Made by a program: the position numbers and the translations under genes. This document shows positions 3,404 to 57,766 of a stretch of DNA of 57,766 nt, piece by piece. Under the pieces are notes generated by a model. It saw only the letters and a list, made by a program, of their open reading frames with translations. It did no database searches and was not told the origin of the DNA. The DNA is from a virus. Position 1 is the first letter of the stretch; every line of letters begins with the position of its first letter. The DNA lies in IMG/VR virus record IMGVR_UViG_3300046520_000171, positions 1 through 57,766 of that record. One strand, 5' to 3'.

Positions 3404-4062
3404 TGACCGGCACCACCCCCACGTACGCGGTGATCCCCACCGAGGGGCGCCCGTGCCTGCACGACTGTGTGGCCGCGCTCCGGGACCAGGTGGACGGGAT
3501 CATCGCTGTGGCGAACGGAGGCTACAACGGCACGGATCTCCGGGACGCGTACGTGATCCGGGACCGCAACCCCGTCCCGAACATTTCCCGTTGGTGGAAC
3601 ATCGGGCTGGAGACGGTCCGGCGCCGGATGGAGCGCGACGGAGAGCTGTGGCAGGACCGCTGGAACGTTCTGGTGGTCAACGATGACACGGTCATGGCGC
3701 CCGGCTCCGTCGCAACCCTTACCGCAGGGCTGCGGAAGTACGACGGGGCGCAGCTCGCGTTCCCGGGCCTCCGGTCTGCGGAAGGCCTGATGAGGCACCC
3801 GAACCCGATCCGAATCACCGGCTGGTGCTTCGCCCTGCGCGGGGAAGCAGGCCTACGGGCGGATGAGGAACTGGCGTGGTGGGCCGGGGACAACGATCTT
3901 GACTGGCGTGCTCGGCAGTCCGGCGGGACCGTGGTCGTCCCCGGCGTGGAGCACCAGCACCTGCACCCCAACGGGTACACCGTGGCGCGCCCGGACCTGA
4001 CCGAACAGGCGGGCAAGGACATGGCCCGGTTCGTGGAAAAGTGGGGGCGTCCGGCGTGGTGA
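3403..4062 (+). CDS. Glycosyltransferase family 2-like protein
   Basis: The 219-residue protein has the GT-A layout: an N-terminal nucleotide-binding strand (YAVIPTEGRP), a loop with LVVNDDTVM in the place of the metal-binding DxD of GT2 enzymes, and a later acidic segment WWAGDNDLDWRARQSGG typical of the catalytic base region. It would transfer a sugar from a nucleotide donor in the cytoplasm. It is the first of a run of overlapping or closely spaced sugar genes (3403-6607), so virion or cell-surface glycan modification is likely. It is short for a full GT2 enzyme and carries no membrane segment, as expected for a phage enzyme that glycosylates virion proteins. Confidence 0.7.
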   Translation: MTGTTPTYAVIPTEGRPCLHDCVAALRDQVDGIIAVANGGYNGTDLRDAYVIRDRNPVPNISRWWNIGLETVRRRMERDGELWQDRWNVLVVNDDTVMAPGSVATLTAGLRKYDGAQLAFPGLRSAEGLMRHPNPIRITGWCFALRGEAGLRADEELAWWAGDNDLDWRARQSGGTVVVPGVEHQHLHPNGYTVARPDLTEQAGKDMARFVEKWGRPAW

Positions 4063-4081: not shown

Positions 4082-4888
4082 ATGAGGATCGCAGTGACCG
4101 GCGGGGCCGGGTTCATCGGCCAGGCCACGATCACAGCCGCGGAGAACGCGGGCAACGACGTGTGGTCGTTCGACCGGGCCGACGGGAACGATGTTCTCGG
4201 GGACCTGGCAGCCCTGTCCGGGGCCGACACGGTCATCCACCTGGCCGGGGTGCTGGGTACGGCCGAGCTGTTCGACAACCCGGAGTGGGCCGTTGAGGTG
4301 AACATCAAGGGCACGCTGCGGGTGCTGGAGTGGTGCAGGGCCAACGGCGCCGGCTACGTCGGTATCACCATGCCCCCGGTGTTCCCGAGCGTGTACACGG
4401 CCACGAAGGTGTGCGCGCAGAGCCTGGCCACGAACTGGCACCGGGCGTTCGGCGTGCCGGTGAGCCACGTGCGGGCCTTCAACGCCTACGGTCCCGGCCA
4501 GGCGCACGGCCCCGGTCACCCGCAGAAGATCGTCCCCACGTTCGCCCGCGCCGCGTGGCAGGGGCTCCCGATCCCGGTGTGGGGCGACGGCACCCAGACC
4601 GTGGACCTGGTCCATGCCGACGACGTGGGCCGGATGCTGGTGGACGCGGCCGGGCACGGGGACGACGCCGTGTTCGACGCGGGGACGGGCGAGGCGGTCA
4701 CGGTCAACGAAGTGGCGGACATCGTCCTCGGGATCACCGGGAGCAGCGCCGGGGTGGAGTACCTGCCGATGCGCACGGGCGAGGAAGCGACCACGGTCGT
4801 GGCCAAGGGTGAGGGATGGGGCCGCCTCGACTGGCGTCCGGTCATGGACTGGCAGCGGCTCGACGACACAATCGGGTGGTACCGGTGA
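4082..4888 (+). CDS. NAD-dependent sugar epimerase/dehydratase (extended SDR)
   Basis: The 268-residue protein starts with MRIAVTGGAGFIG, the Rossmann GxxGxxG motif of extended short-chain dehydrogenases that act on nucleotide sugars. The catalytic YxxxK is Tyr105-Lys109 in SVYTATKVCAQ, and NAYGPGQ is the usual substrate-side motif. It is shorter than the usual 310-330 residues, with a trimmed C-terminal substrate domain. It should epimerise or dehydrate a nucleotide-activated sugar for the neighbouring transferases. It starts 20 bases after the upstream transferase gene and its stop overlaps the next GTG. The exact sugar cannot be read from sequence. Confidence 0.85.
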   Translation: MRIAVTGGAGFIGQATITAAENAGNDVWSFDRADGNDVLGDLAALSGADTVIHLAGVLGTAELFDNPEWAVEVNIKGTLRVLEWCRANGAGYVGITMPPVFPSVYTATKVCAQSLATNWHRAFGVPVSHVRAFNAYGPGQAHGPGHPQKIVPTFARAAWQGLPIPVWGDGTQTVDLVHADDVGRMLVDAAGHGDDAVFDAGTGEAVTVNEVADIVLGITGSSAGVEYLPMRTGEEATTVVAKGEGWGRLDWRPVMDWQRLDDTIGWYR

Positions 4889-5559
4889 CCCGCCCCGACG
4901 CGGCTGTGGTCCAGGCGCTGTACGGGGCGTACGACACGCTCAAGCCGGTGATACCCCAGGCGGGGCTGGACGTGGACTGGGTGCTGGTCACCGACGACGC
5001 GTCGCTTCGGGGCAGCTCCCTGGGCTGGCGCGTGGTCCACCTGCCCCGGCCGGGCGTGCACCCCAACCGGGCGGCGAAGGCCCCGAAGCTGTTCCCGTGG
5101 GAGTACACCGACGCGTCGTCGTCCGTGTGGCTGGACGCGTCCTTCCGCGTCACCTCCCCGGACTTCGTGTCCGGGGCTCTGGCGTGCACGTCCGTCTCCG
5201 ACCCGGTCGCCCAGTTCGTGCACCCGTGGCGGGACTGCGTCTTCACCGAGGCGGAGGAGTCGGCGAAGCTGGCCAAGTACGCGGGGGAGGACTTCGGCCC
5301 GCAGGTGAAGGACGCCCGGGAGCTGGGCCACCCGGACCACTGGGGGCTGTGGGCCACGGGGGTGATAACCCGGCGCCACGATGACGACCGGGTGTTCGAC
5401 CTGGGCAACGACTGGTCGGACCTGATCGACCGGTTCACGTTCCAGGACCAGGTATCGCAGCCGGTGGCGCTGCGCTCCTCTGTCCTGCGTCCGGCCCCGC
5501 TGCCCGGGACGCACTTCGCGAACCCGTGGCTGAGCTACGAAGGAAGTGAGCGGCATTGA
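4885..5559 (+). CDS. DUF616-type (TOD1/MUCI70-like) glycosyltransferase-like protein
   Basis: The 224-residue protein contains ALYGAYDTLKPV, VLVTDD, HPNRAAKAPKLFPWEY and SVWLDASFRV, in the order I associate with the DUF616 domain found in plant and bacterial glycosyltransferase-like proteins. The conserved WLDAS element corresponds to a DxD-like donor site. GTG at 4885 overlaps the epimerase stop, and its own stop overlaps the next TTG. It probably acts with the epimerase and the two GT2-like enzymes to build a short glycan. A full reaction is not established for the family. Confidence 0.65.
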   Translation: MTRPDAAVVQALYGAYDTLKPVIPQAGLDVDWVLVTDDASLRGSSLGWRVVHLPRPGVHPNRAAKAPKLFPWEYTDASSSVWLDASFRVTSPDFVSGALACTSVSDPVAQFVHPWRDCVFTEAEESAKLAKYAGEDFGPQVKDARELGHPDHWGLWATGVITRRHDDDRVFDLGNDWSDLIDRFTFQDQVSQPVALRSSVLRPAPLPGTHFANPWLSYEGSERH

Positions 5560-5990
5560 ACATCGAGATCGGCGGAGGAACGCTGGCCCCGCCCGGATGG
5601 ACCAACCTGGACCCGGTGCACGGCACCGAGGGCTGGAAGCGGCGTGCTCAGGACGGTCCCTGGCCGGCGGACGGCGGGTCGGTGCACGGGATCCTGGCCA
5701 GTCACGTGATGGAGCACATCCCGGCCGCTGAACCCCGGCTCTTCGTCATGAACGAGGCGCACCGGGTGCTCCGGCCCGGGGGCGTGTTCACGGTGCGGGT
5801 ACCCAACGCGGCTACCGGCTGGCACGCGTACGCGGACCCGACGCACGTCAGCTTCTGGGTGCTGGAGTCTTTCCACTACTTCGACGGTCTCAAGGCCGCG
5901 CACGCGGACTACGGCATCCGTCCGTGGACCACCCTGGATCTGACGATCCAGGGGGACAACGAGATCATGTGGCGGGGGACGCCGCGATGA
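5556..5990 (+). CDS. SAM-dependent methyltransferase, short class I
   Basis: The 144-residue protein looks like a compact class I methyltransferase: NIEIGGGTLAPPGWTNLD resembles the glycine-rich SAM loop, ILASHVMEHIPAAE matches the post-motif II 'HVLEH' segment, and EAHRVLRPGGVFTVRVPN is the typical strand 4-5 region. The C-terminal third of a full-length enzyme is missing, so the substrate-binding part is reduced. TTG at 5556 overlaps the previous stop. Its place inside the sugar cassette suggests O-methylation of the phage glycan, which is inference. Confidence 0.75.
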   Translation: MNIEIGGGTLAPPGWTNLDPVHGTEGWKRRAQDGPWPADGGSVHGILASHVMEHIPAAEPRLFVMNEAHRVLRPGGVFTVRVPNAATGWHAYADPTHVSFWVLESFHYFDGLKAAHADYGIRPWTTLDLTIQGDNEIMWRGTPR

Positions 5991-6607
5991 CCCTGCGCCC
6001 CGGGGTGACCGCGGTCATTCCCTTCCACGCGGCCCGGGAGCGCAACGGGATGCTGGAGCGGGCCGCGGCCTCGGTGCGGGCGCAGACGTACCCCACGGAA
6101 CTGGTGCTGGCCCGGGACGTGCACGCCGCGGGCGCCGCGGTCACCCGCAACCACGGGATGGCGGAGGTGGAGACCGAGTGGACCGCGTTCCTGGACAGTG
6201 ACGACACCATGGACCCGGACCACATCGAAGCCCTGATGGCCTGCGCGAGCGAGACGGGGGCGGACTACGTGTACCCCTGGTTCCGGGTGGTCGGTGGCTC
6301 CGATCCGTTCCCGATGTTCTTCGGCCGTCCGTGGGACGACGCGGACCCGCACCAGGTCCCGGTCACGATCCTGGTACGTACCGGGTTGGCCCGGCTGGTG
6401 GGATTCTCCAACCCGCCCGGGTGGGAGCGGGGCGGAGAGGACTGGGCCTTTACCCTGGGCTGTGTGGCTGCCGGCGCCACGATCGTGCACCTGCCGGAAC
6501 GGACCTGGACCTGGAACCATCATGGCCGCAACAGCTCGGGTACGCCGGGGTACGGGGACGCCGGGCCGCAGCCCGTGGCCCGGCGCCGGGCGCAGCGTCG
6601 TCGTTGA
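5987..6607 (+). CDS. Glycosyltransferase family 2
   Basis: The 206-residue protein opens with VTAVIPFHAARERNGMLERAAASVRAQTYP, the hallmark N-terminus of GT2 enzymes. The metal-binding aspartates appear in AFLDSDDTMDPDHIEAL, and GGEDWAFTLGC is the acceptor-side ED motif. It is soluble and lacks a C-terminal membrane domain. ATG overlaps the methyltransferase stop (ATGA). It ends in a basic tail (PVARRRAQRRR). It completes a five-gene sugar cassette directly before the terminase gene, consistent with glycosylation of virion proteins. Confidence 0.85.
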   Translation: MTLRPGVTAVIPFHAARERNGMLERAAASVRAQTYPTELVLARDVHAAGAAVTRNHGMAEVETEWTAFLDSDDTMDPDHIEALMACASETGADYVYPWFRVVGGSDPFPMFFGRPWDDADPHQVPVTILVRTGLARLVGFSNPPGWERGGEDWAFTLGCVAAGATIVHLPERTWTWNHHGRNSSGTPGYGDAGPQPVARRRAQRRR

Positions 6608-7993: not shown

Positions 7994-8034
7994 ACCGGTA
8001 CGCTCACGTGCATGAACGACGGAAAGAGACGCAC

Positions 8035-8883: not shown

Positions 8884-10668
8884 ATGCCGTGGTGGACGTT
8901 CGGTCTGGGACGTACCCCCCAGCTCCCGCGTGCGGAGATCACAGCCGCGTACCAGCGGGCGCACGCCCCGCAGGCGCTGACATCGGCCGCGGTGGAGGTG
9001 GACGCCCCGCGCTCCGATCTGCTGCGTACCACCGAGACGTGGCAGCAGGAGGTCTGGCGGTACTACGACACCCTGGGCGAGTTCAACTACGCGGTGTCCT
9101 GGCTGTCCGCGATGCTGTCCCGCGTCCGCCTGTACGCGGCCGAGCTGGTGCCCGGCCAGGACGAACCGGTGCGGCTGGACGACAACCACCCGGCCGTGGA
9201 CGTGATGAACAAGCTCGCCGGCGGAGTGGCCGGGCAGACCGCCCTCATGGCCAGCCTGGCGGTGCAGCTCGCGGTGCCGGGTGAGGGGTACCTGGTCGGG
9301 GAGACCCGGCAGGGCGCGGAGCGCTGGTCGGTGCGGTCGGTGGACGAAGTCCAGGCCCGGCACAAGCAGTGGCAGGTCAAGGACGAGAACGCGCCCAACT
9401 CCGACCAGTGGCGCGACGTGGTCGGGGGCCACGTGTTCCGGGTGTGGCGCCCGCACAAGCGCTGGTACCACCTGGCGGACTCCAGCTCCCGTTCCGCGCG
9501 GGCGACGATGCGGGAACTGGAGCTGGTCAACCGGCACATCCTGGCGCAGTACCTGAGCCGCCTGGCCTCCGCCGGTATCTGGTTCCTGCCCAACGAGGTG
9601 GACTTCCCCGTACGGGAGGAGTTCGCCGACATGCCCAACCCGATCATGGCGGAGATCGTGGAGCTGGCGCGGCTGGCGATCGCGGAGCCGGGCACGGCGT
9701 CCGCTGTGATCCCGCTGCTGATGCAGATGCCCGGTGAGTGGATCAAGACGGTCGCGGATTCGCACCTGGACTTCACGCTCAAAATCGACGAGAAGATCAT
9801 CGAAAAGCGGGACAGTGCGATCAAGCGGCTGGCCACCCAGGTGAACATCCCGGCCGAAGTGCTGCTCGGCATGGGTGACGTGAACCACTGGGGTGCCTGG
9901 CAGATCGAAGAGGGCGCGCTGAAGACGACGATCGCCCCGGACGCCGAACTCATCGCGAACGCGGTCACCACGGCCTACCTCCAGCCCCGCCTGGCAGCGG
10001 GCGGGGAGCAGGACACGGGCCGGTTCGTGGTCTGGTACGACATGTCCGAGCTGACCATGCGCCCGGACCGCAGCGACGACGCGGTGCTGCTGTACGACCG
10101 GCAGGAACTGTCCGGCGACGCACTGCGCCGGGAGACCGGGTTCGACGAAGCGGACAAGCCGACCGGTGCGGACCTGCTGGACCAGGCACTGAAGCTGGTC
10201 CTGCGTACGCTCCCGGACGCGGCCCTGACCGCGCTGCGGGAACTGACCGGGGCAACGCTGGAGACTCCTTCCGTGGCCGCGTCCCCGGCGCCGGAGCCAG
10301 CACCGGAAGCCGCACCGGTTCCCGTGCCCGTTACCGGACCGCCCAACGGGAACGAAGCGGCCCCGGTGCCCGACGTGGGGCTGGCTGCGCAAGCTCGCGC
10401 AGAGCGGCTCATCCGGCAGGCTCGTGCTGTGCACGCGGTCCGGTTCGGGATGGCCGGGTGGGAGCTGCTGCACCCGGCCGCGTGCGACCAGCACACGTAC
10501 TCCTGCCCGTTCACCCAGGGCGCGCTGTCCCTGAAGTCCATGGCCTACCCCGGGACGCCGGGGCTGTACGAATGCACCCTGGACGCGTTCGGCCGGTTCC
10601 GGGTCGGTGACCGGGCTCCGCACAAGGATGTGTCCGGTCACAGGATCACCCGGAGCGTTACCCTGTGA
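8884..10668 (+). CDS. Portal protein
   Basis: The 594-residue protein sits between terminase and the MuF/protease fusion, the standard portal position. Recognisable portal features are the N-terminal YYDTLGEFNYAVSWLSAMLSRVRLY region, the long alpha-helical stem segment (SAIKRLATQVNIPAEVLLGMGDVNHWGAWQIEEGALKTTIAPDAELIANAVTTAYL, given as landmarks) and a C-terminal Pro/Ala-rich linker. The portal ring connects packaging motor and tail. Unusually, after the linker there is an extra C-terminal segment of about 110 residues with two Cys (CDQHTYSCPF) that looks like a separate small domain. ATG at 8884 follows GGGAGG. Its stop overlaps the next GTG. Confidence 0.85.
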   Translation: MPWWTFGLGRTPQLPRAEITAAYQRAHAPQALTSAAVEVDAPRSDLLRTTETWQQEVWRYYDTLGEFNYAVSWLSAMLSRVRLYAAELVPGQDEPVRLDDNHPAVDVMNKLAGGVAGQTALMASLAVQLAVPGEGYLVGETRQGAERWSVRSVDEVQARHKQWQVKDENAPNSDQWRDVVGGHVFRVWRPHKRWYHLADSSSRSARATMRELELVNRHILAQYLSRLASAGIWFLPNEVDFPVREEFADMPNPIMAEIVELARLAIAEPGTASAVIPLLMQMPGEWIKTVADSHLDFTLKIDEKIIEKRDSAIKRLATQVNIPAEVLLGMGDVNHWGAWQIEEGALKTTIAPDAELIANAVTTAYLQPRLAAGGEQDTGRFVVWYDMSELTMRPDRSDDAVLLYDRQELSGDALRRETGFDEADKPTGADLLDQALKLVLRTLPDAALTALRELTGATLETPSVAASPAPEPAPEAAPVPVPVTGPPNGNEAAPVPDVGLAAQARAERLIRQARAVHAVRFGMAGWELLHPAACDQHTYSCPFTQGALSLKSMAYPGTPGLYECTLDAFGRFRVGDRAPHKDVSGHRITRSVTL

Positions 10669-13600
10669 CGCCGCTCCCGTTCCACCTCCGGGGCCGGCAC
10701 GTGCAGCACGCGCACGGCCACCGCACGGTGGGGCTGGCGGACGGGGAGCACCTGGGCTGCGGGGTGATCGCGCTCATGCCGACCGAGGCGGACGCCAAGC
10801 GGCTCAAGTTGGCCGGGGGCGAGACCGCTGCTGATCTGCACGTGACGTTGTTCTTCCTGGGCTGTGACATGGCCGCGTTCGCCCAGGACGCCCGGGTAGC
10901 GGTGACTAACCGGGTCATGGACGCGATGACCGAGGCTGGGCCGACCACGGTGACCGGGAACGTCTTCGGCGTCAGCCACTGGAACGGCAACGGTGAAGAC
11001 CCGTGCTGGGTGCTGACGGTCGGGGATGTTCCGTCAGAGACCCGGGGCGAGACCGGATCGAAGCTGGAGACGGTACGGGAACTGATCGGATCGGCTCTGG
11101 ACCTGAGCCAGTTCCCGGAACCACACAGTCCGTTTGCGCCCCATATCCGTATGGCGTACACCTCGGACCTGTCCCTGGCCAAGGAACTCCAGAAGAGGCT
11201 GGGCCCGGTGGAGTTCGACCGGGTCCGGGTCGCCTTCGGCTCCGACTACACGGACATCCCGCTGTCCGGTGCGCTGACCGCTGCCGCGGCCCCGCTGCGC
11301 CGTAACCTCACCTCCACAGAGCTGGCCGCTCACACCGACTTCGAGCGGATGCAGTCCACCTGGGAATCGGCCGTGGACGCGGTGCTGAAGGATCTGGAGC
11401 CGGTGTTCAAGGCCCAGCAGGCGGACATCGTGGGGCAGGTGTCCGTCGCCGCGAAGGCGGACGACCTGAGCGCCCTGGACTCCGTCACGGTGGACGAACA
11501 GGCCGCGTACGAGGTGCTGGCCCCGGCGCTGCTCAAGGCAGCGCAGCAGGCAGCGGAGGCGCAGCAGAAGGAAGCCGAGGCGCAGGGGGTCACGGTCCCG
11601 GACTGGTCCCTGACCTCCGACACGGTCACCGCTGCAGCGGGCCGGGACCTGCTGGACCAGGTGGCCCGGGTCACCGCCCGGCTCATGGCCACGTCCCTGG
11701 TCCAGAGCGCCGTGCGCACGGCGCTGCGCCTGTTCGGCCACGGCAACGCGCCGGGCGCGGTGACGGCCGGGGTCCAGCAGCATCTGGACGACCTGACCGA
11801 CGCCCAGCCCCGCGAATCCGTGGGCGGGGCCGTGACCCAGGCCCAGGCCGAAGGCAGGCGCACCGTTCTCGCGGTCGCTCCAACAGGCCGGTACTTCGCC
11901 AGCGAGGTGCTGGACCGGAACTCCTGCAAGCCGTGCCGGGACATCGACGGCACGGAGTACGCGAGCCTGGCGACCGCCTTCGCCGCGTACCCGTCCGGCG
12001 GGTACAGGCGGTGCCTGGGCGGATCGCGGTGCCGGGGGACGATCGTTACCGTGTGGAACCAGCCGGCTGGTGCGACCGCTTCGGCAGCCGTGGACAAGGG
12101 AGTGAGCATGGCCTACGAAGTGACCCAGGACCGGCCCGAGTGCTCGGGGGACACCCCGGTCGCGGTCGTCAACACCATGGATGACAGCCTGTGCGGCTGC
12201 TACGCCACGCCCGAGGAAGCGGCGCAGGCGGTGGACCAGATGGACAGCGGCGACATGCCTCCGGAGTCCATGGACTACGCGGCGCAGAACGTCTACGGGG
12301 CGGAACTGGGACCCGCTGCGGAGGACGGATCCACCGCTCCCTGGACCGGGCCGCTGGCGGTGGAGGGGATCGTCACTGGGGACGGCCGGGAGTTCGCCCC
12401 GGACGCGCTCACGTGGGCGGACCTGCCGGTCCCGCTGCGCTGGAACAAGGAGGACAGCCACGGGGGTGAGCCGCACACCGTGGCGGTGAACGTGGGCCGG
12501 ATCGACAAGATCTGGCGCGACGGGTCCAAGATCATGGGTTCCGGGGTGCTGAACCTGGCGGTGCCGGACGGGCAGACCGCGTACGACCTGATCAAGGGCA
12601 AGTTCCTGCGGGGCGTCTCCATCGACGCGGACTCCATCACCGATGCGGACGTGGAACTGGTCTGGCCCGAGAGCGACGGGGCCGTGATGGAGGACGATCC
12701 GCTGGCCGCGCTGTTCGGAGGTCCTCCGCCCGAGAAGATGATCTTCCATGCGGGGCGGATCCGGGCTGCCACGCTGGTGGACATCCCCGCATTCGCCGAG
12801 GCGTACGTGGCGCTCACCGACGACAACGGCGCCGTGGTGGCCGGGGGCGAGCCGTACACGTTCGCGGCCGTGGCGGTCCACCACACGGCAACTTCCGATG
12901 CGTCCTGGGACGCCGGGATGAACGAGAAGAGGCTTCCCTCCCCGCTCACGCTGGCTCAGGCGCGCGCCGCGTACGCGTGGACCGACGACAGCGCGGTGGA
13001 CGCGGGCAAGATCCCGAAGACCGGGTGCAAGTTCATCCACCACGAGGTCAACGCGGACGGCTCCGCCGGCCCGGCCAACCTGGCAGCCTGCTCCGCCACG
13101 ATCGCGGTCCTGCACGGCGGGCGCGGGGGCACCACGATCCCGACGGCGGATGAGCGCGGGGTGTACAACCACGTGGCCGCTCACCTGAAGGACGCGGGGA
13201 AGGTCCCGGCGCCGTTCGCGGCCGACGACGCGGTCACGGCAGGGGCCATGGCGGAGATGGCGGACTTCCGGCCGCACCCGTCCCGGTTCGCGGACCCGAA
13301 GCTGGCCGGGTACACCGGGGTGGTCATCACGGACGACGGGTACCTGTACGGGCATATCGCGCCGTGGAACGCCTGCCACATCGGCTACGACGGGCAGTGC
13401 GTCACCGCCCCGCGCGAGGACACGCACGACCACTACATGACCGGTGAGGTGGTGTGCTCCGACGGGTCCCGGGCCGCGGTCGGGCAGATCACGATCGGAA
13501 CCGGCCACGCGTCGCTGTACGTCGGGGCGCGCCCGGCAGCGGAGCACTACGACAACACCGGCACCGCGGTGGCCGATGTGGCGGTCGGCAACGACAAGCA

Positions 13601-13919
13601 CGGGATCTGGCTGGCCGGGCAGATCCGGCCCGGCGCCGATCCGTCTGCGGTGTTCGCCCTGCGGGCAGCGGGCCGGGTCAGCGGGGACTGGCGCAACATC
13701 GGCGGGAAGCTGCGCCTGGTGGCGCTGCTCGGGGTGAACACGGCCGGGTTCCTCGAATCGGACCTGCGGACCCGGGCGCGCGTGGCCGGAGGCCAGCCGA
13801 TGGCGCTGGTAGCGGCGGGGGCGACCGCTCCCGTCTGGCATCCTGAGGGCATGGACATCGCCAGGGCGTACAAGCTGATCATGGATCAGACCCTCGCCCG
13901 GTTCACCGAGGGGAGGTGA
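10665..13919 (+). CDS. Fusion: 2H phosphoesterase + MuF-like minor capsid + prohead protease
   Basis: This 1084-residue protein combines three parts. Residues 1-200 look like a 2H phosphoesterase (2',5'-RNA ligase-like): motif 1 is LHVTLFFLG (His59, Thr61) and motif 2 is FAPHIRMAY (His160), where the usual Thr is Arg. Residues 215-465 form a MuF-type head morphogenesis domain ending in DRNSCKPCRDIDGTEY, YPSGGYRRC and SRCRG. From about 560 onward it resembles the capsid maturation proteases of actinophages (LAVEGIVTGDGREFAP, then KFIHHEVN and HYMTGEVVCSDG). The MuF part should enter the prohead with the portal, and the protease should trim the capsid protein. MuF-protease fusions are known; the N-terminal phosphoesterase is the notable addition. 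GTG overlaps the portal stop. A possible internal ATG lies at 12109. Confidence 0.8.
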   Translation: MTPLPFHLRGRHVQHAHGHRTVGLADGEHLGCGVIALMPTEADAKRLKLAGGETAADLHVTLFFLGCDMAAFAQDARVAVTNRVMDAMTEAGPTTVTGNVFGVSHWNGNGEDPCWVLTVGDVPSETRGETGSKLETVRELIGSALDLSQFPEPHSPFAPHIRMAYTSDLSLAKELQKRLGPVEFDRVRVAFGSDYTDIPLSGALTAAAAPLRRNLTSTELAAHTDFERMQSTWESAVDAVLKDLEPVFKAQQADIVGQVSVAAKADDLSALDSVTVDEQAAYEVLAPALLKAAQQAAEAQQKEAEAQGVTVPDWSLTSDTVTAAAGRDLLDQVARVTARLMATSLVQSAVRTALRLFGHGNAPGAVTAGVQQHLDDLTDAQPRESVGGAVTQAQAEGRRTVLAVAPTGRYFASEVLDRNSCKPCRDIDGTEYASLATAFAAYPSGGYRRCLGGSRCRGTIVTVWNQPAGATASAAVDKGVSMAYEVTQDRPECSGDTPVAVVNTMDDSLCGCYATPEEAAQAVDQMDSGDMPPESMDYAAQNVYGAELGPAAEDGSTAPWTGPLAVEGIVTGDGREFAPDALTWADLPVPLRWNKEDSHGGEPHTVAVNVGRIDKIWRDGSKIMGSGVLNLAVPDGQTAYDLIKGKFLRGVSIDADSITDADVELVWPESDGAVMEDDPLAALFGGPPPEKMIFHAGRIRAATLVDIPAFAEAYVALTDDNGAVVAGGEPYTFAAVAVHHTATSDASWDAGMNEKRLPSPLTLAQARAAYAWTDDSAVDAGKIPKTGCKFIHHEVNADGSAGPANLAACSATIAVLHGGRGGTTIPTADERGVYNHVAAHLKDAGKVPAPFAADDAVTAGAMAEMADFRPHPSRFADPKLAGYTGVVITDDGYLYGHIAPWNACHIGYDGQCVTAPREDTHDHYMTGEVVCSDGSRAAVGQITIGTGHASLYVGARPAAEHYDNTGTAVADVAVGNDKHGIWLAGQIRPGADPSAVFALRAAGRVSGDWRNIGGKLRLVALLGVNTAGFLESDLRTRARVAGGQPMALVAAGATAPVWHPEGMDIARAYKLIMDQTLARFTEGR

Positions 13920-22448: not shown

Positions 22449-22841
22449 ATGTCCTTCAACGTGTCCACCTCGTTCCGGCTCGAACAGAGCCGTGTAGCGC
22501 GTCTCCTACGGCTTCCCGGGGGTGCGGTGGACCGGAGTCTCAGGCGCCGCGTGGAACGCGTGCAGACGGCCGCACAGCGCCTCGCACCGGGGTCCATGGG
22601 CAACGGCATCCGTACGTCCCTGCGCTACACCCACGACGGGCCGGTGGGAACGATCACGTCCACCCACCCCGCGACCATCTACGTGGTGAACGGGACCCGG
22701 CCCCACATCATCCGGCCGAAGCGCACCGGGGGCGTCCTGCGGTTCGAGATCGGGGGCCGGGTCGTGTACGCGCGGTACGTCTCGCACCCCGGCACGCGTC
22801 CGAACAACTTCCTCATCGAGGCCCTGCGCGCCGCACTCTGA
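22449..22841 (+). CDS. HK97 gp10-like neck/tail-completion protein
   Basis: The 130-residue protein has the layout of HK97 gp10-like proteins: a basic N-terminal helix (VDRSLRRRVERVQTAAQRLAP), a strand pair around IYVVNGTRPHIIRPK, and the characteristic C-terminal VSHPGTRPNNFLIEAL. This family helps join tail to head. It ends the first half of the morphogenesis operon, after which an antisense gene intervenes. Confidence 0.75.
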   Translation: MSFNVSTSFRLEQSRVARLLRLPGGAVDRSLRRRVERVQTAAQRLAPGSMGNGIRTSLRYTHDGPVGTITSTHPATIYVVNGTRPHIIRPKRTGGVLRFEIGGRVVYARYVSHPGTRPNNFLIEALRAAL

Positions 22842-22922: not shown

Positions 22923-23213
22923 CTACCACGGCCCGCACCCCGGCTCGGTGCAGTGGCCCGGGAGGTTGTGCCAGACACGGACGAAGCGGTCCGCCTGGCC
23001 TTCATGGGCGGACTCACGCGCCGGGTTCCAGCCCTTAAGCAGGCACAGGGTCCAGCGCAGTCCGCTGATCTGGCCGGTCAGGTTGTCCCGGACCACGTAG
23101 CCGGCGTCGGACAGGTCCCCCAGGATGCGGTCCCGGGCATGCATGGCCCAGACCACCTGTTCCGCGATCCGGTCGGTGAGTTCGGCCGCTGTGAGGGCCG
23201 TGGGTTTCGTCAT
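22923..23213 (-). CDS. Small antisense gene in the late operon, unknown
   Basis: A 96-residue protein with an N-terminal helix pair (LTAAELTDRIAEQVVWAMHARDRILGDLSDAG), a basic middle and a Cys/His end (GHCTEPGCGPW). The ATG follows GACGGAGGAACG, the ribosome site typical of early genes here, and an early-type promoter lies 20 bp further up. It is the second minus-strand gene inside the late block. Function unknown; a regulatory or lysogenic role is possible. Confidence 0.75.
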   Translation of the reverse strand: MTKPTALTAAELTDRIAEQVVWAMHARDRILGDLSDAGYVVRDNLTGQISGLRWTLCLLKGWNPARESAHEGQADRFVRVWHNLPGHCTEPGCGPW

Positions 23214-23311: not shown

Positions 23312-23600
23312 GGGAGTGTTTTCAGAGTGAGGAGTGTGGGGAACGGCCCTTCTAGGCCATGCCTCTGTGACTGAGCATTCTAAATGATCTTAAAATCCTT
23401 GATCAACTTCTCTTCACTCACAAACGCATGGCCTAGAAGGGAGAAAGTCACACTCCACACCCATTCTCACACCGGAGGGAACGATTCCGCCCTGTTTGTC
23501 CTTCCATACGTACGGGTGTACCCAGGTGTGTCCGCAAATGCCGGAGTGTGGGCAACGGAATCCACACCCCACACCGCCGAACCCGAACCCCACACCCTCA
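23312..23600. other. Candidate replication origin: inverted repeats, A+T-rich core, CACAC iterons
   Basis: This noncoding stretch holds a perfect 16-bp inverted repeat, CCCTTCTAGGCCATGC (23347-23362) and GCATGGCCTAGAAGGG (23426-23441), around 63 bp that are about 63% A+T in a 30% A+T genome. Many short CACAC-core repeats flank it (GTGTGGGG, TCACACC, CCCACACCG types). The same 16-mer plus the flanking GTTCCCCACACTC recurs inside the 3' end of the primase gene. IR plus A+T-rich core plus iterons is the standard look of an origin bound by a plasmid-type initiator. Confidence 0.6.
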
Positions 23601-23660: not shown

Positions 23661-24125
23661 ATGAGCGAGAGCACGGGCCCGCTGACCGGGTCCACAGACG
23701 ACGGGGTGAAGGACTTCACCCGGCAGCACGAGCGGATCAGGTTCCGCATCGACGGAGACCTGTTCGAAGCGGCGCGGGCGCTGCCCGGTAAGACGCTGAC
23801 GGAGTTCGCGACCCGCTTCGAGACGATCGGCGCCATGCCGGTCGGGGCGCAGGTGGACGCGATCCTGGACGCGCTCGGGCTGGTGCTGCTCCCCGACTCC
23901 GCCGCGGCGGTGGCCAAGCGGCTGGGGGATCTGGAGAACCCCATCGAGCTGGAGCAGGCCAGCGAGGTCATGATCTGGTTGCTGGAGAAGTACGGGCTGC
24001 GCCCTACACAGCCGTCCTCGAACTCTGCCGGTGGGCCGGTCAGCCCGGTATCTGGCACGAACTCGACGGACGTTCCGCAGCTTCCGGCACCGACTTCGCC
24101 TACCTCCCCGCCGACCGGTTCCTGA
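23661..24125 (+). CDS. Tail assembly chaperone, short form (G)
   Basis: A 154-residue protein directly before the tape measure gene, where tail chaperones lie. It has an acidic N-terminus, a helical middle (LTEFATRFETIGAMPVGAQVDAILDALGLVLLPD, IELEQASEVMIWLLEKYG) and a Ser/Pro-rich end that looks like an out-of-frame tail. A second coding frame (-1) opens in this region and continues to the tape measure start, the usual G/GT arrangement. ATG at 23661 has no strong ribosome site; GTG at 23607 is possible. Confidence 0.75.
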   Translation: MSESTGPLTGSTDDGVKDFTRQHERIRFRIDGDLFEAARALPGKTLTEFATRFETIGAMPVGAQVDAILDALGLVLLPDSAAAVAKRLGDLENPIELEQASEVMIWLLEKYGLRPTQPSSNSAGGPVSPVSGTNSTDVPQLPAPTSPTSPPTGS

Positions 24126-37112: not shown

Positions 37113-37472
37113 TTACGCAGCCAGCTTGTGGGCCGCACGGGTGAAGATCCCGGCAGCGGTGATGTCCTTCGGGCGGTACACGGACAGGCGGGCGGTGAAG
37201 GTGGGCAGGTCGTACAGCTTGACCGGGACCAGCTTGGTCCGGCGCCCCTTGAGCTTGATCACCGTCTCGCCCGTGGCGGTCGGGGTGACCTTCGTACTGA
37301 AGGCCCCGGAGAACCGCTTCGCGGTGGCCGCGTCGATCCCGGCCGCGATCATGTGCGTCTTTGCCGGCTGCGGGGCCCCGGTGGCCACGGCCTTCACGGC
37401 ACGGCGGGCGGTGCGGGTGGCTTTGCTACGGGCGGAGATCGTGCGGCGGGCGGTGCGGCTGCTGGCGTTCAT
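37113..37472 (-). CDS. Basic protein, possible DNA-binding
   Basis: A 119-residue protein with a very basic, Arg/Ala/Thr-rich N-terminus (SSRTARRTISARSKATRTARRAVKAV) and a beta-rich second half (GETVIKLKGRRTKLVPVKLYDLPTFTARLSVYRP). The charge suggests nucleic-acid binding, perhaps a small nucleoid-like protein. It forms its own unit between promoter 37514 and terminator 37076. Family not recognised. Confidence 0.7.
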   Translation of the reverse strand: MNASSRTARRTISARSKATRTARRAVKAVATGAPQPAKTHMIAAGIDAATAKRFSGAFSTKVTPTATGETVIKLKGRRTKLVPVKLYDLPTFTARLSVYRPKDITAAGIFTRAAHKLAA

Positions 37473-38287: not shown

Positions 38288-38326
38288 GATGGCCTCCGTC
38301 TGATGCTGCTCTCTCCGTCTGATTTA

Positions 38327-38356
38327 ATTAAACCACAGACTCCGCGTCGAGCGCAA
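38327..38356 (-). promoter_or_regulatory. Early promoter, strong match
   Basis: Minus strand TTGCGC (38351-38356), 18-bp spacer, TTTAAT (38327-38332), then TAAATCAGACGG. The element also forms a GTCTG...CAGAC inverted repeat, which may be an operator. Confidence 0.75.
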
Positions 38357-39195: not shown

Positions 39196-39257
39196 CCCGG
39201 GGACGACCACCAGCCGCACTTCGCGCAGAACACGTTCAGCCGCAGGATCCAGTTCAC
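39183..39257 (-). CDS. Tiny Cys-containing ORF coupled to the translocase gene
   Basis: A 24-residue ORF (VNWILRLNVFCAKCGWWSSP at the start) whose GTG overlaps the translocase stop. CAKCG...CGH could bind zinc. The overlap favours translation by coupling; the small size keeps confidence low. Confidence 0.45.
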   Translation of the reverse strand: MNWILRLNVFCAKCGWWSSPGCGH

Positions 39258-41011
39258 GAGCCGTCGCCCCCACAGTCGGTGTCCGCCACCCGCAGCCGGT
39301 AGTCGTCCCCGTCCCGGACTACTTCGTCCTTCTCCAGCATCTTCGCCAGAGCGCCGTGCACCGAAGACTTCGCCCGGCCTGTCCTGTCCGCCAGCTCGGA
39401 CAGGGACAGGCTGTCCGAGGACAGCAGCAGGACAGTCCAGATGTCCAGGGACACCGTGGACGCTGTCCTGTCCGGGACGGCGGACAGGACAGGAGACGGG
39501 ACAGGACAGTCGGAGGACAGGGACTGTCCTGCTGCCCGGGTCGGGAGGACAGTCCTGTCCTCCGCCCGGTCCATGTCCTGTCCGCTGTCCGCTGTCCCGG
39601 ACAGGGAGCGGAAGGTGTCCGTGGACAGCCAGACAGCCTTCGCGTCCACCGGGGAGCGGTGAGCGGCCGACTTCACCAGCAGCCAGCCGGGCCCGTACAG
39701 ATCGTGCGGGGCCCAGCCGTCCCGCACGTCGTCCTTGAACACCACGGCGGACTCTTCCGAAGACTCCAGTTTCAGGCACACCCGGACATTGAGCTGGGAC
39801 CTGATCTCGGTCGGCAAGTTGGCAGCCTTCGGGTACTGGGTGGCCCAGACGAAGTACACCCCGAGCGCCCGGCCCTGCTCCACCGCGGTGAACAGCCGGC
39901 GCAGCGGGAGGCCCTTGGAGCCCGGCTTCTCGCCTTCCTCCACTTCCTCGCGCCACTCCCCGAAGCCCCGCACGATGACGTTCCCCTCATCGATCACGAT
40001 CACCCGGGCCGGGTCCCACGGCGTCTCCTTCCACTCCGAGACGCCCCGCTCCCGGAGCTTGTCCGCGCGCCGGGGGAACTCGACGTTGAGCAGCCAGTCC
40101 AGCCGGGCCACGGCCGCACCGACCGAGGTCACCTGGTGCGCCTTGCCCGCGTAGTGCTGGGCCTCCACCCCCAGTTTCAGGTCCCACAGCTCCAGATCCG
40201 CGTCGATCGCCTGCGCCACGTGCGCCCCGATCAGCCGCTGCACGCACGACTTCCCGGAGCCGGACGCCCCGAACAGCCCGATGCGCTGCTTCAGGTCCAG
40301 CTCGATCGTGTCCCCGAACGGGGTCACCGCCAGGCGCAGCGGGTGCGCCAGGCGCACCGGGACGGCCGGAGCTTCCCACGGCACCCCGTCCGCCAGCGGG
40401 TCCCTCAGCCGTACGTCCACGATGCCGCGGCCGGCGGTGGCCCCCTTGCGCAGGCGGATCGTCCCGGAGAGAACGTCCAGTCCGGTTTCGAGCTGGTCCA
40501 CGCCCCGCTGCGCAGCGGCGAAGTCCAGGCGCCCCCGGAATTCCACGTGTACCGCCACGCCGTACGGGGTCGCCTCCATCTCCCCGCGTTCCAGGCCGGC
40601 CAGGTTCCGGTCACGGCACATTGCAGACCAGGATTCCTTCTGGAGCTTCTGGGCCAGCGCCTGCGGGATACCGAGCTTGTGCGCGAGCAGTTTCGCCCGG
40701 GGACCGTCCATCAGGGACGCCCCCTTTTCCGCTGCCTTTTCCAGGACCGGCGCGGGTGAATTCCCCCGGAGCTGTTCCATGCCGACGACCGGCAGCGCTT
40801 CCGGGGCGCTCCCGGATCCCTTCTTGTGTTTCTTCCCCCGCTTCGGCCGGGACTGCTGCACGGCCTGGTTCCGGCGCCCGGTCCACTTCACCGCGACCGC
40901 GATACCGACCGCGACGACCAGGGTGAACACCCCTCCCGCGCTGATCCCGCTGTCCGGCTGCTGCTCGGTGACCGGCTGCGCCGGAACCGCTGTGGATGCC
41001 CCGTACTCCAT
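39254..41011 (-). CDS. tra-like: FtsK/TraB-like DNA translocase
   Basis: The 585-residue protein has one N-terminal membrane helix (GGVFTLVVAVGIAVAVKW) and then an FtsK/SpoIIIE motor: Walker A in LFGASGSGKSCVQRL (about residue 247) and Walker B in VIVIDEGNVIV (about 338). After a Ser/Asp/Pro-rich linker it ends with a winged helix (SLSLSELADRTGRAKSSVHG, about 535-575). Membrane anchor, hexameric motor and C-terminal DNA-reading winged helix are the plan of TraB, the single-protein conjugative translocase of Streptomyces plasmids, and of FtsK. Some actinophages carry FtsK-like genes. The linker-coding DNA is packed with CTGTCC/GGACAG. Spd-like and GntR genes lie upstream on the same strand. 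Confidence 0.85.
   Translation of the reverse strand: MEYGASTAVPAQPVTEQQPDSGISAGGVFTLVVAVGIAVAVKWTGRRNQAVQQSRPKRGKKHKKGSGSAPEALPVVGMEQLRGNSPAPVLEKAAEKGASLMDGPRAKLLAHKLGIPQALAQKLQKESWSAMCRDRNLAGLERGEMEATPYGVAVHVEFRGRLDFAAAQRGVDQLETGLDVLSGTIRLRKGATAGRGIVDVRLRDPLADGVPWEAPAVPVRLAHPLRLAVTPFGDTIELDLKQRIGLFGASGSGKSCVQRLIGAHVAQAIDADLELWDLKLGVEAQHYAGKAHQVTSVGAAVARLDWLLNVEFPRRADKLRERGVSEWKETPWDPARVIVIDEGNVIVRGFGEWREEVEEGEKPGSKGLPLRRLFTAVEQGRALGVYFVWATQYPKAANLPTEIRSQLNVRVCLKLESSEESAVVFKDDVRDGWAPHDLYGPGWLLVKSAAHRSPVDAKAVWLSTDTFRSLSGTADSGQDMDRAEDRTVLPTRAAGQSLSSDCPVPSPVLSAVPDRTASTVSLDIWTVLLLSSDSLSLSELADRTGRAKSSVHGALAKMLEKDEVVRDGDDYRLRVADTDCGGDGS
39379..39630. repeat. CTGTCC/GGACAG cluster inside the translocase gene
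   Basis: By hand I count 10 CTGTCC and 12 GGACAG in about 250 bp, both orientations, within the part coding for the linker before the winged helix. Composition predicts less than one. The encoded linker is low-complexity, as if the DNA motif rather than the protein were under selection. Confidence 0.85.
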
Positions 41012-41034: not shown

Positions 41035-41136
41035 GTTCGGTGTTCGTTCGTTCGGTGTTCGTTCGGTGCGTTCGCCCAGGTCGGCTACCGCCGAACGGCC
41101 CCGGAGGGTCTTTCCGGGGCCGAACGAACACCGAAC
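41035..41136. promoter_or_regulatory. Three 16-bp repeats upstream of the translocase gene (operator candidate)
   Basis: GTTCGGTGTTCGTTCG occurs at 41035-41050 and 41050-41065 in direct tandem, and its exact complement at 41121-41136. The first two lie 24-55 bp before the translocase ATG, where a repressor such as the GntR protein would act. Confidence 0.6.
41096..41122 (-). terminator. Terminator between the Spd-like and translocase genes
   Basis: CGGCCCCGGA and TCCGGGGCCG form a perfect 10-bp stem with a 7-base loop, enclosed by the inverted outer repeats. It ends the 41143-41637 transcript. Confidence 0.65.
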
Positions 41137-41142
41137 GAACGG

Positions 41143-42576: not shown

Positions 42577-43551
42577 TTACACGACCTGGGACAGGTCGCC
42601 CCGGGCCCGCTGAATCGTCTTGGTGATGTTGTCCGCCTTCATGTCCGCTCCGTACTCGCTGCGGACAGCGGCGGACAACTCCGCGTTGGACAGGGACGGA
42701 TCGGCGGACAGCAGCCCCCGCACGAACGCCCGGGGGAGCTGGCGACCGGACAGCTCGGACAGCCTGTCCGCGGGGGTGTCCCTGACTGTCCGGGGGAGAG
42801 CTGTCCTGTCCTGTCCGTTGTCCGCAGGACTGTCCTGGGACAGGACAGGGACAGCGGACAGGTTGTCCTGTCCGGTCGGGACAGCCCGGACAACTTCGGT
42901 CCTGCTGTCCTGGACAGGGGTGGACAGGGCCAGCGTTTCGGTCGCGATGCGGGACTGGGTGCGGGTGAGCTGGCGCCGGGCCGCGGTGACCGCGAGCGTG
43001 GCGTTGACCTCCGCGCGCTCCGCGCTCAGCCAGGCTTCCGACGCCGGGTCCATGGCCACCGAGGTGTGCCGCATGACCACCGTCGCCATGCCCTTGGCGA
43101 TGACCGAGACGGCCCCTCCGCACGCTCCGAGGACCGTGCCCCGGCCCGACCAGTCCACGGTCCCGGCCATCAGCGCCGTGCCCCCGTTGGAGGCTCCGTG
43201 CAGGGTGATCAGGCACACGGACAGGGCCAGCGCGACCCACCCGCAGGCGACCGGGAGAGCGGCTCGGGCCCGGTCGAACCGGCACAGCCATTCCAGGATC
43301 AGGCAGACGATCCAGGCCAGGTCGAACACTCCGGCCACCAGGTACGCGGCCCATACGGGCGCCACGCCGGACAGCAGACCGCCGATCGCGACCGTGGACC
43401 AGGTGATGGCGCCGGCCACCGCCAGGGACGCTGCGGTGAGCACCGCGGTGAGCGCCATCGCGTCGTAGTCCCGGGGTACCTGGAACTCCTGCGGAACGAG
43501 GTGCTGCTTCCCGTCCCGCTCCACCGGGACCATGCGGGTGACCGTTTTCAT
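42577..43551 (-). CDS. spdB-like: DUF2637/SpdB-like membrane protein
   Basis: The 324-residue protein has an N-terminal membrane domain of about four helices (MALTAVLTAASLAVAGAITW, AAYLVAGVFDLAWIVCLILEW, LPVACGWVALALSVCLITLHG, VLGACGGAVSVIAKGMATVVM). Then come a charged helix, a long Ser/Asp/Pro-rich linker and a small C-terminal helical domain (LSNAELSAAVRSEYGADMKADNITKTIQRARGDL) that looks DNA-binding. This is the layout of DUF2637/SpdB spread proteins of Streptomyces conjugative elements. The linker DNA carries a dense CTGTCC/GGACAG cluster. Confidence 0.75.
   Translation of the reverse strand: MKTVTRMVPVERDGKQHLVPQEFQVPRDYDAMALTAVLTAASLAVAGAITWSTVAIGGLLSGVAPVWAAYLVAGVFDLAWIVCLILEWLCRFDRARAALPVACGWVALALSVCLITLHGASNGGTALMAGTVDWSGRGTVLGACGGAVSVIAKGMATVVMRHTSVAMDPASEAWLSAERAEVNATLAVTAARRQLTRTQSRIATETLALSTPVQDSRTEVVRAVPTGQDNLSAVPVLSQDSPADNGQDRTALPRTVRDTPADRLSELSGRQLPRAFVRGLLSADPSLSNAELSAAVRSEYGADMKADNITKTIQRARGDLSQVV
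42661..42928. repeat. CTGTCC/GGACAG cluster inside the SpdB-like gene
   Basis: I count about 12 GGACAG and 8 CTGTCC in about 260 bp, again in the part coding for the linker before a C-terminal DNA-binding-like domain. Confidence 0.85.
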
Positions 43552-43640: not shown

Positions 43641-43774
43641 CGGACAGTCCTGCTGTCCTGTCCCGCTGCCCTGTCCGCTGTCCTGTCCGCTGTCCTGTCC
43701 GCTGTCCTGTCCGCTGTCCTGTCCGCTGTCCTGTCCGCTGTCCTGTCCCGCTGTCCCTGTCCCTGTCCCTGTCC
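43641..43774. repeat. Tandem CTGTCC array, intergenic (candidate translocase-recognition site)
   Basis: Five exact 12-bp units CTGTCCTGTCCG at 43678-43737 are flanked by one-off units on both sides and four CTGTCC hexamers at 43751-43774: about 19 CTGTCC in one orientation. It lies between a terminator and the SpdB promoter and codes for nothing credible. Confidence 0.9.
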
Positions 43775-44235: not shown

Positions 44236-44274
44236 GTCCCGCTCCTTCGTCCGCTGCTCTCTCCGTCTGATTTA

Positions 44275-44303
44275 ATTAAACCACAGACCGGAGCGGCTCG
44301 CAA
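44275..44303 (-). promoter_or_regulatory. Early promoter, strong match
   Basis: Minus strand TTGCGA (44298-44303), 17-bp spacer, TTTAAT (44275-44280), then TAAATCAGACGG. Nearly identical core to 38327, including the GTCTG...CAGAC arms. Confidence 0.75.
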
Positions 44304-44306
44304 CAC

Positions 44307-45071
44307 TCAGCCGTGAACGGGAACCGTGTACGTGAGCCGGTACCGGTCGGCCCGCAGCGTGCACCGGTCCACGCTGATCGGGGCCCCGCCGGTCGTCCGG
44401 TGCGTGATGAGCATCCGGACCACCCAGGCGGAGGACGGCAGCGCCAGGTCCCGCTGGTCGGTCTCGGTGGCCGGTCCGAACGCGATCGTCTCCTGCCGGT
44501 CCACCAGCGGGTACCCCCGGTCCGCGAAGATCCGGTACGTCCCGCCCCGCACCAGCCCCTGCTGGGCGATCGCGGTGCCCGAGGCCACGGCCAGCAGGTA
44601 GTAGGAGTCGGCGAGTTCCACCGGTTCCCCGTCCGCCAGCATCACCCGGGGCCGGAGCAGCACCGGGGTGCCGGGCTCGATGTCCAGCTCGGCTGCCACA
44701 TCGTCCGGCGCCGGAACCTCGCCGACCCGGCCCAGTCGCTGGGTGCCCCGCATGCCGAGTTCGGCCAGGCGCTTGGTCCAGGTCTGCTGGCCTCCGTCCG
44801 CCGTGGGGGCCACGTAGGAAGAGGACGTGTGGATGACGGGACGCCGGGACAGCACGCGGGTCCTGCGGCCCTGGCCGGTGTCGATGAGGCCCTCGCGGGC
44901 CAGCACCTGGAACGCGGACTTCACCGTGTCGTTGGTGGCCCCGTACGCGGTCCTCAGATCCGCCACTGTGGGCAGCGTCCCGCCGGCGGGGTAGTCCCCG
45001 CGTTCGATCGCGGAGCGGAGCGCATCCGCCAGCGCCCGGTACTTCGTCGTGCGTGGGGGAGTGGTATCCAC
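44307..45071 (-). CDS. korSA-like: GntR-family regulator (HutC/UTRA type, KorSA-like)
   Basis: The 254-residue protein has an N-terminal winged helix (YRALADALRSAIERGDYPAG, TVADLRTAYGATNDTVKSAF) and a C-terminal UTRA ligand domain (EPGTPVLLRPRVMLADGEPVELADSYY). KorSA of pSAM2 and related GntR regulators with UTRA domains control transfer and replication in Streptomyces conjugative elements. GTG follows GGAGAGACTTACC. The 16-bp repeats upstream of the translocase are a candidate target. Confidence 0.85.
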   Translation of the reverse strand: MDTTPPRTTKYRALADALRSAIERGDYPAGGTLPTVADLRTAYGATNDTVKSAFQVLAREGLIDTGQGRRTRVLSRRPVIHTSSSYVAPTADGGQQTWTKRLAELGMRGTQRLGRVGEVPAPDDVAAELDIEPGTPVLLRPRVMLADGEPVELADSYYLLAVASGTAIAQQGLVRGGTYRIFADRGYPLVDRQETIAFGPATETDQRDLALPSSAWVVRMLITHRTTGGAPISVDRCTLRADRYRLTYTVPVHG

Positions 45072-54146: not shown

Positions 54147-54260
54147 TCCCGTGTCCGTGAGTGTGGACAGTGTGGTCTACTCTCAACCCACCCAAACGAA
54201 CATGCGAAACCCCCGGAAGCCGTGGGCCGGCGCCGGGGGCACGAGCGAGAGCGAGTCGCC
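54147..54260 (+). promoter_or_regulatory. Leader of the primase-helicase gene
   Basis: This 114-bp gap holds GTGTGG-type repeats (GAGTGTGGACAGTGTGGTC) like those of the candidate origin and a CCCCCGG/CCGGGGG hairpin shortly before the ATG. TACTCT at 54178 may be a -10. Initiator binding here could autoregulate the primase gene. Confidence 0.4.
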
Positions 54261-56645: not shown

Positions 56646-57766
56646 ATGGCTGACATCGGATTCTTTGACATCGAGACCGCGTCCGCGGACCGGCTGTACC
56701 TGGGCGGACACCCCGGCCCGTTCGTCCGGCTGTGCGGCGCTGCCGGCAACGCGGCCGTGGGCGTGACCACCGACCCCGCGGCCCTGCTGAACTTCCTGGA
56801 CCGGGCGACCGTGATCGTGGGGCATGACGTGCTCCGGTTCGACCTGTCGGCGCTGGCCCGGCACTGCGGGGCGGACTACGACGCGCTTGCGGCCAAGACC
56901 GTGGACACGATCGTTCTCGCCCGTCTCGCCGATCCGCCCTCCGCCAAGGGCATGCGGTCGGGGTACTACTCGCTCGACGCGGTCGCCCAGCGGTACGGGG
57001 TCGTGGGGAAAACCGACGACCTGAAGGCGCTGGCGCTGGAGTTCGCCCCGCTCACCGACCCGGCCACGGGGGCCAAGCTCACCGAGCCGGAACGTGCGGC
57101 CCTCGGGTACGCCCTGATCCCTCAGGACGACCCGAGGTATCTGGACTACCTCCGGGGCGACGTACGGGCCTCACGGGCCGTGTACGGGGCGCTGGCGCCC
57201 GAACTGGACGACTACGCCCGGCGCGAGATGCGGATCGCCGCGATCCAGAACCGGATGACGCTGAATGGCTGGCGGGTGGACGAAGACCTTCTCGCGCAGC
57301 GCACCACGACCGAGGAAGAGCACCGCCAGCAGGCGCTGAAGGTGCTCGGGGCCGAGTACGGGGTGCCCCTGACCAAGACCGTGACGAAGGGCCGTGGTAA
57401 GGCCAAGGTCACGTTCGAGGAACCTCGACTGTCCCCCACGGGGTCCGACGCGGGCCGTGCTGCCCTTGTGAGCGCCTTCCGGGCCGCAGGTGCCCCCCAC
57501 TACCCGAAGACCGCTACGGGGGCCCTGGCGACGTCCTCAGACGCTCTGGGGGACGGTTTCTACTTCGTGGGCAAGGGCGCGGAGATGAAGCGGTTCCCCG
57601 GCATGCTGCGCGCGTACGGGCATCTTCCCGGGGTCCGCAGGATCTGTGAGCTGGTCAACGAGGTGACCGGGGCCACCGCCAAGTACGCGGAGATCTCCAA
57701 GTTCGTTACCGCCGGCCGGGTGCACGCCGGGATCGGGGAGGACCAGGCGTCGGGGCGCTGGGCCCA
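56646..57766 (+). CDS. polA-like: DNA polymerase I (family A), N-terminal part, continues at 1
   Basis: The first 373 residues in this window open with ADIGFFDIETASADRL: the DxE exonuclease I motif of a 3'-5' proofreading domain at residues 8-10. Further exonuclease motifs are VGHDVLRFDLSAL and DVRASRAVYGAL. The polymerase thumb begins near RREMRIAAIQNRMTLNGWRVD. GACGGAGGAAACGGACAG precedes the ATG. The gene is cut by the window end only because of where the circle was opened. Confidence 0.95.
   Translation, partial: MADIGFFDIETASADRLYLGGHPGPFVRLCGAAGNAAVGVTTDPAALLNFLDRATVIVGHDVLRFDLSALARHCGADYDALAAKTVDTIVLARLADPPSAKGMRSGYYSLDAVAQRYGVVGKTDDLKALALEFAPLTDPATGAKLTEPERAALGYALIPQDDPRYLDYLRGDVRASRAVYGALAPELDDYARREMRIAAIQNRMTLNGWRVDEDLLAQRTTTEEEHRQQALKVLGAEYGVPLTKTVTKGRGKAKVTFEEPRLSPTGSDAGRAALVSAFRAAGAPHYPKTATGALATSSDALGDGFYFVGKGAEMKRFPGMLRAYGHLPGVRRICELVNEVTGATAKYAEISKFVTAGRVHAGIGEDQASGRWA
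57640..57766. repeat. Terminal direct repeat, right copy (circular overlap)
   Basis: Identical to 1-127; see there. Unique length is therefore about 57,639 bp. Confidence 0.95.

Follow-up and report, generated by a model that had tools for sequence, protein, structure and literature searches.

The late-operon element

The window, by which we mean the whole stretch of 57,766 nucleotides that was analysed, is a Streptomyces-type phage genome with an overall GC content of 68%. The gap of interest lies amid its structural genes, as first annotated: a tail-completion gene (22449-22841) and a minus-strand ORFan precede it, and the gene starting at 23661 and then the tape measure gene follow. The gap contains a perfect 16-bp inverted repeat with 63 nt between its arms, exactly as the initial annotation had described it (Table 1); if mismatches are allowed, each arm can be lengthened to 28 nt (89%). 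The core had been called A+T-rich, and it contains the 60-mer with the lowest GC content of the genome (35%). The same annotation noted flanking CACAC iterons; six GTGTGG/CCACAC motifs lie between 23312 and 23600. One of 100 dinucleotide-shuffled genomes gave an inverted repeat of at least 16 bp with arms no more than 150 nt apart, and the predicted fold of the late copy, at −70.5 kcal/mol (z −6.1), is far stabler than those of shuffled sequences. A few hairpins as long as this repeat or longer occur elsewhere in the window; the longest inverted repeat found there, of 22 bp, is made by GTTCGTTCGGT repeats at 41035-41141.

The 127 nt at the start of the window are identical to the 127 nt at its end when it is compared with itself, so the genome is complete, as a circle or a terminally redundant molecule, and measures 57,639 bp. 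The gene for a family A DNA polymerase begins at 56646 on the plus strand, runs to 57766 and continues through the circle into positions 1-842. No tRNA genes were found in the window. When 24 kb of the window was used to search phage records at near-DNA level, nothing matched, and relatives were therefore drawn from IMG/VR and from protein searches.

Table 1. Coordinates of the two element copies of the window and of the genes and repeats next to them
Feature	Position	Strand	Basis or remark
96-aa ORFan, against the late operon direction	22923-23213	-	adjoins the late copy
Left outer repeat GGAGTGTGGGGAACGG (GTGTGG iteron), late copy	23331-23346	+	also in match to 56514-56533
Left arm of perfect inverted repeat, CCCTTCTAGGCCATGC	23347-23362	+	sequence
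A+T-rich core (TGATCT, TTGATCA), candidate unwinding region	23363-23425	.	lowest-GC 60-mer of genome
Right arm of inverted repeat	23426-23441	-	sequence
Right outer inverted repeat CACACTCCACACC	23449-23461	-	sequence
Further repeats GGAGTGTGGGCAACGG and CCACACCCCACACC...CCCCACACC	23543-23596	.	sequence
Next late gene, probably tail assembly chaperone	23661-24125	+	
Tandem repeat pair GTGTGGACAGTGTGG, upstream of primase	54161-54175	+	kept in G004, G005, G006
P4-family primase / SF3 helicase, candidate initiator	54222-56627	+	TIGR01613, D5_N, DUF5906
Tandem GTGYGG/GTGTGG repeats, exact 9-bp spacing	56398-56421	+	
First arm CAGACATCCTCTCCATACGT, primase-tail copy	56425-56446	+	same type as L016/G010 arms
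Core GTTAATGATCATGGTCAAGG, primase-tail copy	56459-56482	.	
Second arm and outer repeat, primase-tail copy	56488-56533	-	89% match to late copy
Outer tandem repeat GTGTGACGAGTGTGG, 9-bp spacing, primase-tail copy	56521-56535	-	

A second copy in the primase gene

When the genome was searched with the late region, a 46-nt segment was found that matches positions 23327-23372 of the late copy in reversed orientation. This second copy, overlooked by the initial annotation together with the tandem repeat pair upstream of the primase gene, falls within the primase reading frame at its 3' end, where it overlaps the last 230 nt or so of coding sequence, and immediately precedes the DNA polymerase gene. 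Its tandem GTGTGG repeats, at an exact spacing of 9 bp, are present on both sides and converge on an A+T-rich core containing TTAATGATCA; the late copy is without such clean tandem repeats. Of the 44 GTGTGG/CCACAC words of the genome, 12 fall in the two sites, against 0.43 expected (P 5e-14); matches inside the terminase gene are scattered. A third full copy, as expected from the Woodruffvirus phages described below, was not found in the window. The repeat pair upstream of the primase gene is possibly a control site bound by the initiator.

The protein encoded here scores 154.5 bits against TIGR01613 (cut-off 108.7) and has D5_N and DUF5906 domains, of the SF3-helicase type; a Pfam scan of it showed no archaeo-eukaryotic primase domain. 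The SaPI5 primase-helicase is both its best PDB sequence match, beyond which that search returned chance matches only, and the top structural match (E 1.5e-11) of its AF2 model, which is of moderate quality (mean pLDDT 69). In the model, residues 645-698 form a confident helix-helix-strand-strand domain, and residues 704-801, encoded over the element, are predicted to be disordered (pLDDT about 25-33). Identity to G005 and G006 drops to 62% and 58%, respectively, in the tail (693-801), against 90% for the remainder of the protein, and the stretch encoded over the element looks dispensable. The P4-family primase-SF3 helicase is the replicative candidate among the scanned window proteins. A search for DnaB_C gave no match in G004-G006 and Mischief19. 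The homologue in Abt2graduatex2 shows a weak Pox_D5 match and a weak match to the TOPRIM-like DUF3854.

Conservation and covariation in relatives

Paired sites, one at the primase end and one in the same late gap after the tail-completion gene, are present in G004, G005, G006 and G014. The G014 primase is 75% identical to that of the window, and its own two sites are 73% alike over 165 nt. Reading the primase 3' ends of G015, G016, G017, G018 and G022 revealed the same plan, which G019, G020, G028 and G031 also follow with other repeats, such as GGCAGAAGT. In G015 and G018, the primase gene and its tail site are accompanied by no room for a late copy, making the primase-side site the constant one and the late copy optional. 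Late genes in common with the window are also present in G007, G008 and G009; in these, of which the first two are fragments, no D5-type primase was seen, the late insert is absent and no multi-copy palindrome was found. The elements that were tested contain 60-mers within the lowest-GC 0.6% of their own genome.

The late gap is also a hot spot for extra genes as far as the sequences of L010 (G004, around 37125-37434), L011 and L012 can be read, the additions in different relatives being an HTH-like gene, an ORF of unknown function and a DNA-methyltransferase-like gene.

In an alignment of eight sites, the outer repeats (GGAGTGTGGGSAWCG) and the core (TGATCA) are conserved, and the stem sequence varies by site, with the two arms of one site tending to match. 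Over twelve sites, arms match better within a site than between sites (permutation P 5e-5), the exceptions being the primase copy of the window and the late copy of G005. Palindromy that is maintained while the sequence changes, together with the very stable predicted fold, would be expected of a long RNA hairpin, formed by transcripts of the late and primase genes and serving as a processing site, terminator or antiterminator. The stem mismatches argue against selection on an RNA strand, since A-C pairs (137) and G-U pairs (129) are about equally frequent. Short iterons at a fixed 9 bp outside the stem are unexpected for an RNA hairpin, copies occur in either orientation and an Rfam scan of the window gave no matches; we regard an RNA element as very unlikely.

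A site controlling transcription, at which a phage regulator turns on the tail operon and the replication genes, is a more serious alternative. Both in the window and in Woodruffvirus, late copies immediately precede operons, at places where promoters are expected, a repeat pair precedes the primase gene, and the core of the late copy contains two divergent sigma70-like matches against 0.2 expected. Over 38 element sites, however, there are five such matches against 3.3 expected, which is no enrichment, and the orientation of the element relative to transcription varies. In the window's clade, the copy that is conserved is located within the primase gene, at its end. Just 5' of the ATG of the gene at 23661 is a promoter-like block (GATC...TACSGTSNCC), which is kept in relatives that do not have the element (L013 and L015). 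The same late gaps in G016, G017 and G022 carry a different repeated element, which keeps a promoter or operator alive for the late location; overall we consider this reading unlikely, though well worth bearing in mind. The mismatch, sigma70 and promoter-block results favour a protein-bound DNA element, as far as sequence can indicate, and leave room for an unusual promoter.

The different repeat just mentioned is non-palindromic, about 100-200 bp long and promoter-like, and sits in the tail-completion/chaperone and terminase/portal gaps (G016 at 25465, 38671, 73593 and 91963; G017 at 3510 and 21833; G022 at 8031 and 33623). These extra copies had been candidates for late copies of the element and were rejected on their sequences.

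Linkage to the primase gene

Twenty-seven genomes with the primase were compared, which are related and do not represent 27 independent cases. In ten of them, the inverted repeat that ranks as strongest is no more than 1.5 kb from the primase gene; in six more, the stronger repeats are themselves copies of the primase-side element, bringing the total to 16/27. These searches revealed no clear element in G021, G030 and G033. The side on which the element lies varies, being the 3' end of the primase gene or downstream of it in the window's clade, and upstream in Woodruffvirus, G024 and G026.

Three-copy palindromes in Woodruffvirus phages

All seven Woodruffvirus genomes studied (Abt2graduatex2, Geonosis, TP1604, YDN12, Xkcd426, Mischief19 and phiSAJS1) contain a three-copy nested palindrome, some 220-380 bp long (around 300 bp), which is the strongest or near-strongest repeat of each genome. 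One copy adjoins the primase gene on its upstream side, one is in a late gap and one precedes the portal operon. The late copy is syntenic with the gap of the window in Abt2graduatex2 and its near relatives, and is located before the minor tail genes in phiSAJS1. The repeat words are private to each phage and nearly absent outside the elements (15/17, 16/17 and 9/9 in three phages). A search for Woodruffvirus papers gave a single genome description (PMC11536984), and neither repeats nor intergenic elements came up in a search of its text.

Copies are more alike within a genome than between genomes, and two of those in Abt2graduatex2 are 100% identical over 292 nt. Between Abt2graduatex2 and phiSAJS1, the tape-measure gene and an adaptor block swap places relative to the copies, which thus mark module borders. 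Such homogenisation and shifts in module order would suit a repetitive or mobile palindrome that has no part in replication, is kept uniform by recombination and template switching and provides borders for module exchange. The syntenic positions across divergent phages, tied to the primase, argue against this, as does the pattern of change, in which stems vary while iterons and core stay; a transposase or integrase was not seen among the genes examined. We hold it to be the least probable of the alternatives.

The repeats differ greatly among Woodruffviruses with similar primases, including a similar C-terminal region, suggesting that the reader of the repeats may be another protein. A conserved gene diverging from the primase-side element (L080:1263-2276, minus strand, and its Woodruffvirus homologues) encodes a product with a C-terminal, zinc-finger-like CGCxTPxHxMxCG motif, a candidate repeat binder; this Cys/His protein gave no family match.

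Comparison with known replication origins

In PICI/SaPI origins, two iteron sets flank an A+T-rich region directly 3' of the gene for the primase-SF3 initiator, and these origins replicate plasmids (PMC6092414). The primase-tail copy of the window likewise consists of two iteron sets around an A+T-rich core, at the end of the gene for a P4-family primase with an SF3 helicase for which SaPI5 provides the top match. It is this copy that has the position at the 3' end of the candidate initiator gene; the late copy is 33 kb away. Unlike PICI/SaPI origins, the window site overlaps the end of the coding region, has variable palindromic stems and has an extra copy tens of kb off, and the window is a large phage with its own polymerase and not a satellite.

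Bacillus phage SPP1 has two origins, oriL and oriR, with shared repeats and A+T-rich stretches; one is in the initiator gene, and the other is intergenic, breaking up the run of late morphogenesis genes beside moron genes (PMC6316719). According to one proposal, the initiator bound at oriR would stall forks and so set off concatemer synthesis. In the window, too, repeats are shared by a pair of widely separated sites, of which one is in the candidate initiator gene and the other in a non-coding late gap. Differences are the palindromic stems, the up to three copies in Woodruffvirus, and the initiation proteins, which in SPP1 are gp38, gp39 and the DnaB-type gp40. The window system is SPP1-like in layout and, judged by the DnaB-type helicase looked for in G004-G006 and Mischief19, falls outside that class.

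The origin of phage P4 shows two-site behaviour. Its alpha protein binds origin repeats through a winged-helix domain (PMC4234260); the likeness of the window is that of the primase family (TIGR01613). For pRN1 and phage BIP-1, a large stem-loop directly 3' of the SF3 primase-helicase gene is the proposed assembly site (PMC4234260), and the window too has a palindrome at the end of such a gene. The pRN1 and BIP-1 proteins have the archaeo-eukaryotic primase domain that the Pfam scan did not show in the window protein, and their origins are reported without iterons, which are prominent in the window. The window combines the layouts of PICI/SaPI, SPP1 and pRN1/BIP-1.

Proposed roles of the two copies

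We think it rather likely, from the sequence comparisons, that the elements constitute an origin-type family recognised by a phage initiator. The origin-like character proposed by the initial annotation gained from the copy in the primase gene, the confinement of the repeats, the linkage to the primase and the PICI/SaPI and SPP1 layouts. That the late copy is the origin is not supported: the primase-tail copy is the canonical one and is kept in G015 and G018, where a late copy is absent. The initial annotation had also proposed GC skew as a check. In the window, the skew is lowest at about 52-53 kb, not far from the primase region, and highest at about 14 kb, and there is no switch at 23.4 kb; in Woodruffvirus, it has no consistent pattern at the element copies. 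The primase-tail copy is probably the primary origin. That the late copy is a working second origin appears nearly as probable as the opposite.

In the mechanism we propose, the GTGTGG repeats would be bound by the initiator, for which the P4-family primase-SF3 helicase is the most likely candidate, perhaps aided by a helper protein. The A+T-rich core would open after this binding, allowing the helicase-primase to load there and DNA synthesis to start. The primase-tail copy would act in this way as the primary origin, and the late copy may be a secondary site for the same protein, either as a second origin or as a fork-stalling site like that suggested for SPP1 oriR.

The elements form a previously undescribed, origin-like family that is group-wide and has one to three copies per genome; no description was found in the literature searched. 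To our knowledge, no origins are known for this phage group, for which the elements supply concrete candidates; they would also extend the PICI/SaPI origin type to large lytic phages. The three-copy palindromes are the strongest repeats in several named and cultivable Streptomyces phages. The elements also make it testable why a lytic phage keeps extra origin-like copies in its structural operon, and whether the copies are the seams of structural-module swaps. More tentatively, an entire group of lytic actinophages might use two or three matched palindromic origins per genome, one in or next to the primase gene and the others between structural modules. The copies would evolve in concert, determine when replication takes place or when it switches to concatemers, and serve as joints for module exchange.

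Other features of the window

Between the replication and packaging genes (4082-6607) are genes for a sugar-nucleotide epimerase and two glycosyltransferases. The gene at 10665-13919 encodes a fusion of 1084 amino acids, in which the N-terminal 200 residues or so match RNA-ligase families and the C-terminal part matches head protease/MuF-like families. On the minus strand, an FtsK/TraB-like translocase gene is located at 39254-41011 (NF041214 TraB, E 4.8e-10, below the curated cut-off) and a GntR-UTRA type transcription regulator gene at 44307-45071. GGACAGG/CCTGTCC words, resembling the recognition repeats (clt) of plasmid TraB, cluster in the 3' end of the translocase gene, in the gene at 42577-43551 and in an adjoining tandem 12-bp array (GCTGTCCTGTCC); the repeat stretches are 39378-39605, 42589-42922 and 43657-43768. 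A perfect direct repeat of 36 nt (CTGCTCTCTCCGTCTGATTTAATTAAACCACAGAC), with copies 6 kb apart at 38305-38340 and 44253-44288, looks like a promoter or leader.
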